A stretch of DNA of 33,318 nucleotides, from positions 1 to 33,318 of the forward strand of contig JAAYKX010000108.1 of the NCBI GenBank assembly GCA_012522155.1, read 5' to 3'. The first letter of the stretch is position 1; each line of letters opens with the position of its first letter. Source of the DNA: Bacteroidales bacterium. GTDB taxonomy: Bacteria; Bacteroidota; Bacteroidia; Bacteroidales; VadinHA17. The notes below the pieces were generated by a model. The model made no database searches. It was not told where the DNA came from and worked only from the letters and a program-made list of their open reading frames with translations. This document shows, in pieces, positions 3,908 through 6,371 of this stretch. Made by a program: the position numbers and the translations under genes.

Positions 3908-3939
3908 TTTGAAAAATTGATCAACAATGATTATTTTTG
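3908..3939 (+). promoter_or_regulatory. Bacteroidetes-type promoter candidate for the coiled-coil/zapA genes
   Basis: TTTG at 3908-3911, 20-nt spacer, TATTTTTG at 3932-3939, 16 nt before the ATG at 3956. Confidence 0.5.
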
Positions 3940-3955
3940 CAATAAAGATTCTGAT

Positions 3956-4249
3956 ATGTCCGGTAGTGCTTTTTCAGATTTAAAACGCTTGAACAAAAAG
4001 CTGGATGAACTGTTAAGCACTTATGAAAATCTTAAATCAGAATTTCAGGATCTTGAAAAGAACAATGAAGAATTGAGGATGATTCTTCATGAACGGGAAG
4101 AAAGAATTAAGGAACTGGAAATTAAATACGAGAGGGTTAAATTATCAGGAGCACTGTTGGGGGATAGTGGAAACACGGGGGAAGCGAAGAGAAAGATAAC
4201 TGAATTAGTGCGGGAAATAGACAGATGTGTTGCTCTTTTAAACAGATAA
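3956..4249 (+). CDS. Small coiled-coil protein encoded upstream of zapA
   Basis: MSGSAFSDLKRLNKKLDELLSTYENLKSEFQDLEKNNEELRMILHEREERIKELE heptad-like pattern. The start at 3956 is preferred because the track start at 3917 lies inside the predicted promoter. Confidence 0.7.
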   Translation: MSGSAFSDLKRLNKKLDELLSTYENLKSEFQDLEKNNEELRMILHEREERIKELEIKYERVKLSGALLGDSGNTGEAKRKITELVREIDRCVALLNR

Positions 4250-4258
4250 AATATAACA

Positions 4259-4549
4259 ATGGATGATAAACTATCGATCAGGGTTAATGTTGCCGACAGA
4301 TATTATCCATTGAAAGTGGAACGGGAAAATGAAGAAAAGATCAGAAAGGCTGCCAGGATGATCAACGAGAAAGTGTTGCAGTACAAGCAACGCTACACAG
4401 GTAAGGATGTACAGGATTTTCTGGCAATGGCAGCCCTGCAGTATGTGATTAAACTGACCGAACAGGAAGACAGGCTTGAAAGAGATTATGTCCCGGAAGC
4501 CATACAGGAGCTGATTCACAAGATTGATTCCGCTCTTGAAAAAGAGTAA
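4259..4549 (+). CDS. zapA: Cell division protein ZapA
   Basis: 96 aa, MDDKLSIRVNVADRYYPLKVERENEEKIRKAARMINEKV...DFLAMAALQYVIKL, ZapA-like N-terminus and coiled coil. Confidence 0.85.
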   Translation: MDDKLSIRVNVADRYYPLKVERENEEKIRKAARMINEKVLQYKQRYTGKDVQDFLAMAALQYVIKLTEQEDRLERDYVPEAIQELIHKIDSALEKE

Positions 4550-4577
4550 CAGCGTTCTTTAAAATAGCAAATAATTG

Positions 4578-4779
4578 CCCGCATTGTTTCTTCAATCATT
4601 TTTGAAACTCAACAGTTTAAAACTTTGAAGTCCACCTTGAGCTGGCAAGGACAGGCCTTATCCCGATTTATCGGGATCACACTACGGTGTGACATTGGAA
4701 GTCCGACCCGGAACAGGAACTTCAGCCATGTAGACATGGGGTTTTATAAAATCTGAGGGAACTCTGCGGGTTTTTTTTT
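4578..4779 (+). ncRNA. Structured RNA candidate, possibly 6S-like (by zapA linkage and size), ending in a T9 tract
   Basis: CCCGCA 4578-4583 pairs with TGCGGG 4765-4770; GUUUCUUCA 4586-4594 pairs with UGAGGGAAC 4754-4762; UAAAAC 4618-4623 pairs with GUUUUA 4741-4746; hairpins at 4660-4677, 4677-4692 and 4726-4739; T9 at 4771-4779. Located between zapA and rny with no long ORF on the plus strand. Confidence 0.6.
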
Positions 4780-4808
4780 ATAGACTATAAACACAATTAT
4801 ATTAAAAC

Positions 4809-6371
4809 ATGACATTATTAATCGCACCGGTCAGCAGTTTGCTAACCATCATACTGTGTGCTGCTGCACTGGTAACAGGAATAGGGATAGGACTCCTTGC
4901 CTGGCATACTGCTCTGAAGAACAGAAGCCGGAAAATAATAAATGAAGCAGAAACAGAAGCTGAAGTTATCAGGAAAGAAAAAATCCTTCAGGCAAAAGAA
5001 AGATTCCTTCAGCTTAAGACGGAGCATGAAAAGGTAATAAATGATAAAAATAACAGAATAGCTCAGTCGGAAAACAGAATAAGACAAAAAGAACTTACTC
5101 TTTCCCAGAAAATTGAAGAAGCACAGCGCAGGAAAAATGATGCTGACACAATTCGCAAAAACCTCAATTCGCAGCTCGATATTATTGATAAAAAGAATGA
5201 AGAGCTTGAGAAACTTCACCGTCAGCAGGTGGAAAAGCTGGAAGTTATTTGCGGATTATCTGCTGAAGAAGCAAGGGAGAATCTCATGGAATCCCTGAAG
5301 GAAGAAGCGAAAACCGGTGCTATGTCCTACATCAATGAAATACTTGATGAAGCAAAAATGACGGCTAACAAGGAAGCAAAAAGAATAATTATCCAGACAA
5401 TCCAAAGAGTTGCTGCTGAAAATGCCATAGAAAATGCGGTTACTGTCTTTCATATCGATTCGGATGAAATAAAGGGTCGCATAATAGGACGCGAAGGGCG
5501 GAATATCAGGGCTCTTGAAGCAGCAACCGGAGTAGAGATAATTGTTGATGACACACCTGAGGCAATTGTACTTTCAGCATTTGATCCGGTAAGGCGGGAA
5601 ATCGCCCGGCTTGCTTTGCATCAGCTTGTTACGGATGGCAGGATTCATCCTGCACGGATTGAGGAAATTGTTGAAAAAACAAAAAAACAAATTGAGGAAG
5701 AAATCCTTGAAACCGGGAAACGTACGGCAATAGACCTTGGGATCCATGGCCTTCATCCGGAACTGATACGGCTGATTGGAAAAATGAAATACAGGTCTTC
5801 CTACGGTCAGAATCTGCTTATGCATTCCCGTGAAGTGGCAAACCTTGCCTCAATCATGGCTGCGGAACTCGGACTGAATCCCAAGCTGGCAAAAAGGGCA
5901 GGATTGTTGCACGACATTGGCAAGGTGCCTGATGATGAACCAGAGCTTCCACATGCAATACTGGGGATGAAAATAGCTGAAAAGTATAAGGAAAAACCTG
6001 AAATATGCAATGCAATAGGCGCACATCACGATGAAACGGAAATGACAACGCTTATAGCACCCGTGGTACAGGTTTGTGATGCTATATCCGGTGCCCGTCC
6101 GGGTGCCCGCCGCGAAGTTGTGGAATCATATATCAAGAGGCTCAAGGAACTTGAATCCCTTGCCCTGCAGTATCCTGGTGTAACAAAAACCTATGCCATA
6201 CAGGCGGGAAGGGAACTCCGTGTAATAGTCGGAGCCGAAAAAGTATCTGACAAGGATGCTGAAGGACTTTCATTCGATATTGCAAGAAAAATACAGAATG
6301 AAATGACCTATCCGGGGCAGATAAAGATTACGGTAATCCGGGAAACCAGGGCGGTTAACTACGCTAAATAG
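4809..6371 (+). CDS. rny: Ribonuclease Y
   Basis: N-terminal TM helix, coiled coil, KH domain ([29 protein letters not shown]) and HD domain ([11 protein letters not shown]...GLLHDIGK). Confidence 0.96.

Follow-up and report, generated by a model that had tools for sequence, protein, structure and literature searches.

A structured RNA homologous to 6S RNA between zapA and rny in a Bacteroidales genome

The zapA-rny locus and the fold of its RNA

The window, i.e., the whole 33,318-nt stretch of Bacteroidales DNA that we have analyzed, holds a structured RNA gene at 4578-4779, which is about 193 nt long plus a T-run and has a very stable predicted fold. The RNA with its parts, the boxA-like element and the two neighboring genes are on the plus strand. 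Its conserved upstream neighbor is zapA, encoding the cell division protein ZapA (4259-4549; PF05164, E 5.1e-17), and its conserved downstream neighbor is rny, encoding RNase Y (4809-6371; PF12072, PF01966 and PF00013, with HD and KH domains). These Pfam matches bear out the gene names given in an earlier note on this DNA, which was made from the sequence alone. A boxA-like element, GTTCTTTAAAATA (4554-4566), follows the zapA stop and precedes the RNA, and is recognized by its conservation within the genus and by its likeness to a 16S leader motif. A short coiled-coil gene (3917-4249) precedes zapA, is found at the same place in Flavobacteria-type loci, and possibly encodes a ZapB-like partner. 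At its other end the RNA closes with a T9 run directly after the closing stem (4771-4779), a putative intrinsic terminator.

The minimum free energy of 4578-4779 is -71.3 kcal/mol, against -48.9 +/- 4.4 kcal/mol for 200 dinucleotide shuffles (z = -5.12), and none of the 200 shuffles is equally stable. By DNA search, homologues of the element are present in almost every same-genus genome and extend to several other families of the order. For the covariation analysis, 33 copies were aligned with MAFFT by sequence alone, and the structure was taken from RNAalifold. The consensus fold is one long rod with a three-segment closing stem (4577-4610 with 4739-4771), a central bubble of about 15/14 nt, an apical arm (4626-4657 with 4697-4724) and two variable hairpins on top. 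The earlier note had described a branched interior unlike the 6S rod. This description fits the apical end only; the main part of the RNA is rod-like and contains a central bubble.

The stems, hairpins and T9 run that had been read from the sequence are all present, including the pairing of CCCGCA (4578-4583) with TGCGGG (4765-4770) and of GTTTCTTCA (4586-4594) with TGAGGGAAC (4754-4762). In the consensus, the closing stem consists of P1 (4577-4583 with 4765-4771; helix 1), P2 (4587-4594 with 4754-4761; helix 2, three pairs changed on both sides) and P3 (UUU/UGAAACUC, 4599-4610, with GGGUUUUAUAAA, 4739-4750; helix 3, based on pair conservation). The central bubble has an unpaired 5' strand (4611-4625) and a 3' strand (4725-4738) with a small CCAU...AUGG hairpin, part of the predicted CCATG-TAGA-CATGG (4726-4739). 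Of the 33 sequences, 32-33 retain the first three pairs of this hairpin. The apical arm continues with P4 (4626-4631 with 4719-4724; helix 4, 4/6 pairs changed on both sides), P5 (4637-4645 with 4708-4716; helix 5, 8/9) and the P6/P7 5' strand (4649-4657), which includes the highly conserved CAGGCC. Both hairpins on top are present as the earlier note had them. Apical hairpin 1 (AUCCCGAUUUAUCGGGAU, 4660-4677; helix 8) is variable in length, and apical hairpin 2 (UCACAC UACG GUGUGA, 4677-4692; helix 9) is fast-varying, with 4/4 pairs changed on both sides. The expansion of hairpin 1 in five copies (L003, L009, L016, L026 and L029) is a nested palindrome of about 15 nt that resembles a small inserted hairpin, and short matches to its CCCGAT..ATCGGG core are scattered through many of the genomes.

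A further helix of the earlier note, UAAAAC/GUUUUA (4618-4623/4741-4746), exists as sequence. However, it competes with UGAAACUC/GGGGUUUUA, which is better conserved (pairs kept in 30-33 of 33 sequences, against 29-32 of 33). UAAAAC falls within the 5' bubble strand, and by analogy with other 6S RNAs the helix could form as an alternative once the closing stem opens during release.

Covariation among the 33 relatives, which the note had proposed as a check of its structure, is strong. Across the homologues 96.5% of cells are paired, and 27 of the 56 pairs are changed on both sides, compared to a shuffle mean of 11.1 and with 0/500 shuffles reaching 27. Additionally, the real alignment register widely outscores every slid version. 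The pairs of P1 are invariant, and support for this segment therefore rests on the folding energy and the other helices.

Homology to the 6S RNA families

Rfam searched at threshold finds zero families in the window, and at E <= 10 there is no meaningful match at 4578-4779; the SBWMV2 and VR-RNA rows at that level are chance matches on the minus strand. Taken with the two extra apical hairpins, this lack of a meaningful Rfam match would suit an unrelated structured RNA of a new class that happens to lie between zapA and rny. We find this scarcely credible, as the matches to three 6S families are full-length and in register, for two of them in both search directions.

In one direction, the 6S-Flavo model (RF01685) has no match for the window RNA itself. 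It gives sub-threshold matches (33-43 bits) in several relatives, and in G001, G021 and G049 these coincide exactly with the DNA homologues of the window RNA. The best scores among the homologues are 40.8 and 42.9 bits, under the gathering score of 85 bits. The Bacteroidales-1 model (RF01693) likewise gives weak matches at other zapA-rny copies, e.g., L033, L043 and G131, which do not reach its gathering score of 60 bits, and no match in the genome of the window (G000). In the other direction, we built a covariance model, R1, from the homologues of the window RNA without any authentic 6S-Flavo or Bacteroidales-1 member. R1 matches 13/13 authentic 6S-Flavo loci tested (34-74 bits) and 9/9 authentic Bacteroidales-1 loci tested (18-49 bits), in both families at full length, on the correct strand and in register, and it finds the authentic Bacteroidales-1 loci of G063 and G064 genome-wide with E-values of 7e-6 and 2e-10.

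The link to canonical 6S RNA (RF00013) runs through relatives. The RF00013 gathering score of 46.4 bits is not reached in the window or its genome, and a search of 60 relatives with this model gave one weak match only, which is the true zapA-rny locus of G038. R1 has matches in 30/119 genomes of the phylum, and an rny homologue lies directly downstream at 11 of the 14 R1 loci inspected outside the order. Among the matches in the phylum is L165 (G171:C35), from another class, found genome-wide with E 4e-14 upstream of rny. RF00013 scores 47.1 at the same coordinates, above its cut-off of 46.4, and the bubble lies at the same place in the R1 and RF00013 alignments, where it corresponds to the central bubble of the window RNA. 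L165 is thus an RNA at the zapA-rny site that bridges RF00013 and the family of the window RNA. The general anatomy of 6S RNA, i.e., closing stem, large central bubble and apical stem, is also what the consensus and covariation display.

There is one locus per genome in the order. The second R1 matches in G072 and G073 come from the palindromic rod of the first, read on the opposite strand, and minus-strand R1 matches were set aside as such reflections. A second match in G114 is 37 nt long and at chance level. The R1 match in G065 (83 nt, E 0.0026) was also set aside as chance, because the Bacteroidales-1 RNA of this genome sits elsewhere.

Since R1 recovers the RF01685 and RF01693 loci as well as L165, which is above the RF00013 cut-off, the window RNA, conserved and structured, is a homologue of 6S-Flavo, Bacteroidales-1 and canonical 6S RNA. 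The earlier note had suggested a divergent 6S RNA of 6S-Flavo or Bacteroidales-1 type, and in the sense of homology both names are right. As RF00013 itself gives no match at threshold here and relatives are needed as a bridge, membership is in the wider 6S superfamily and not in the Rfam model as built. The window RNA is a strongly diverged member of a known 6S kind that falls below current Rfam thresholds.

Gene order, relocation and the boxA-like element

In an order-wide set of 98 genomes, R1 matches 75, and the R1 and Bacteroidales-1 models combined cover 90. The R1 RNA is directly upstream of rny in 70 of the 75 genomes, on the same strand, and directly downstream of zapA in 69/73. This arrangement, together with the rny start codon 30 nt away in the window and the terminator-like end of the RNA, is what would be expected of a cis-acting rny leader, i.e., a structured 5' UTR or attenuator regulating RNase Y, which the earlier note had named as an explanation that would refute its own. 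Such a leader is highly improbable, as the structure of the RNA is that of 6S RNA and a whole clade keeps the homologous RNA at a site distant from rny, where it has a promoter of its own. In 16 genomes of the order an above-cut-off Bacteroidales-1 RNA lies at another site, and in these the zapA-rny gap (profile edges) is reduced to 117-242 bp, compared to 246-646 bp where the RNA is present. None of the 98 genomes has a zapA-rny copy plus a separate copy. The RNA is hence not always in cis to rny, and its relocation in one clade argues against the leader.

The arrangement of coiled-coil gene, zapA, RNA and rny was also seen in 8 of the 9 authentic 6S-Flavo loci examined (translated ORFs, by eye), and several of these loci share the divergently oriented M23 peptidase gene of the window. 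In beta- and gamma-proteobacteria 6S RNA is likewise downstream of zapA (PMC7641849). The ancestral site of the 6S gene is likely zapA-6S-rny.

In the window, only about 30 nt separate the T-run of the 6S RNA from the rny start codon (4771-4809). With so short a gap, transcription of rny must either pass through the 6S gene or begin within it or immediately downstream, and RNase Y may in this way be coupled to 6S transcription.

The two genomic settings differ in what precedes the RNA. Same-genus copies have CGTTCTTTAAAATA or a near variant between the end of zapA and the RNA, and the boxA-like GTTCTTTRAAATA lies ahead of the 6S gene at the zapA site in L082-L110, L116, L119, L120, L122 and L125. 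Among 40 zapA-rny copies, GTTCTTT occurs within 90 nt upstream in 31 (0.19 expected) and TAnnTTTG, the main promoter element of the phylum (PMC7366714), in 1 (2.0 expected). For nine relocated copies the pattern is reversed, with GTTCTTT in 0/9 and TAnnTTTG in 8/9, and the full -33/-7 promoter pattern (one variant letter allowed) in 9/9. The boxA-like element has the same sequence as the rRNA leader motif of this lineage, as GTTCTTTGAAAT or GTTCTTTGACAG is found 133-142 nt before 16S rRNA in the same-genus genomes G030, G034, G018 and G033, where the boxA of rrn operons is located. The exact motif has only 3 sites in the 2.7-Mb genome, and the other two appeared inside or antisense to coding sequence. 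In E. coli, boxA binds NusB-S10 (PMC10931766).

These patterns suggest that in one clade the relocated gene gave up boxA and acquired a standard TAnnTTTG promoter. For the ancestral 6S gene of the phylum, we propose, with confidence evenly divided, that it had no promoter of its own and was, like rRNA, transcribed with boxA/NusB-S10 antitermination, in this case from the zapA unit, and then processed. A competing account of expression, which leaves the rest of the explanation untouched, is that the 6S gene has its own unrecognized promoter and that GTTCTTTRAAATA is this promoter or a regulator site and not boxA. In most copies the element is some 20 nt away from the RNA, as a promoter might be, and a sigma-70-like hit (TTGAAA-18-TAAAAT, 4536-4565) overlaps it in the window. 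We gave this hit little weight because the phylum uses TAnnTTTG (PMC7366714). The TAnnTTTG scan matched no recognizable promoter at the RNA of the window, where no match does not equal no promoter, while the relocated copies do carry this element. Additionally, the spacing between motif and RNA covers a range of about 12 to 72 nt, which is a better fit to a transcribed signal, and the same motif precedes 16S rRNA in same-genus genomes. We therefore regard a promoter at this element as doubtful. In the collection of papers searched, none brings boxA, 6S RNA and antitermination together, which is weak evidence of novelty.

Proposed role and comparison with known systems

6S RNA is a near-universal regulator, and most bacteria use it to restrain RNA polymerase. 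We are very confident in identifying the window element as the bacterium's 6S RNA (ssrS), and by analogy it most likely binds and inhibits the housekeeping RNA polymerase. As in other members of the 6S family, the RNA would mimic an open promoter, bind the holoenzyme with the primary sigma factor and block the promoters of the polymerase as growth slows. On recovery, the polymerase would use the 5' bubble strand as template for short pRNAs and then be released; synthesis would presumably begin in 4611-4625. A 6S RNA and pRNAs have been reported for Bacteroides thetaiotaomicron (PMC7366714).

How the RNA is made is less certain. From comparative sequence evidence that leaves us about equally inclined to accept or doubt it, transcription would be part of the zapA unit and pass through boxA, which would load NusB-S10 and so shield the untranslated RNA from premature termination. 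The 5' end would then arise by processing and the 3' end at the terminator before rny. If this is true, the amount of a polymerase inhibitor would be tied to the expression of a cell-division gene and to free S10.

The boxA leader before 6S is the unexpected and most interesting part of these results. The exchange of boxA and promoter provides a directly testable idea of how 6S levels are set in this phylum, whose primary sigma factor is unusual. Additionally, the curated models miss 6S across most genera of the order, and these genomes are therefore annotated as lacking 6S. One model built from the window RNA unites three Rfam entries (6S, 6S-Flavo and Bacteroidales-1) as one homologous family.

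Among known systems, 6S-Flavo (RF01685) is like the window RNA in its site (coiled-coil gene-zapA-RNA-rny), in the core ACUCAAC...CAGGCC...GGA...CCA..UGU...GGGGUUU, in the order of bubble and arm, and in the reciprocal model matches. However, the homologues of the window RNA are under the 85-bit cut-off and have a longer apical arm with two hairpins, and the RF01685 model, with 108 positions, spans the inner part only. Bacteroidales-1 (RF01693, "6S-Bacteroidales RNA suggested") is found in the same order, is about 180-200 nt long and matches in both model directions. A Bacteroidales-1 copy and a zapA-rny copy are mutually exclusive, and the members above cut-off occupy other genomic sites, where they have a TAnnTTTG-type promoter and lack boxA.

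Canonical 6S/SsrS (RF00013) shares the single-stranded central bubble, the closing stem, the apical stem and the site after zapA (PMC7641849; PMC4064990), but the sequence in this order is too diverged for the RF00013 model. While the proteobacterial locus is zapA-ssrS-ygfA, the window RNA is followed by rny and not ygfA. Finally, GTTCTTTRAAATA matches the 16S leader motif as a boxA of rrn operons would, but here it precedes a 6S RNA gene.
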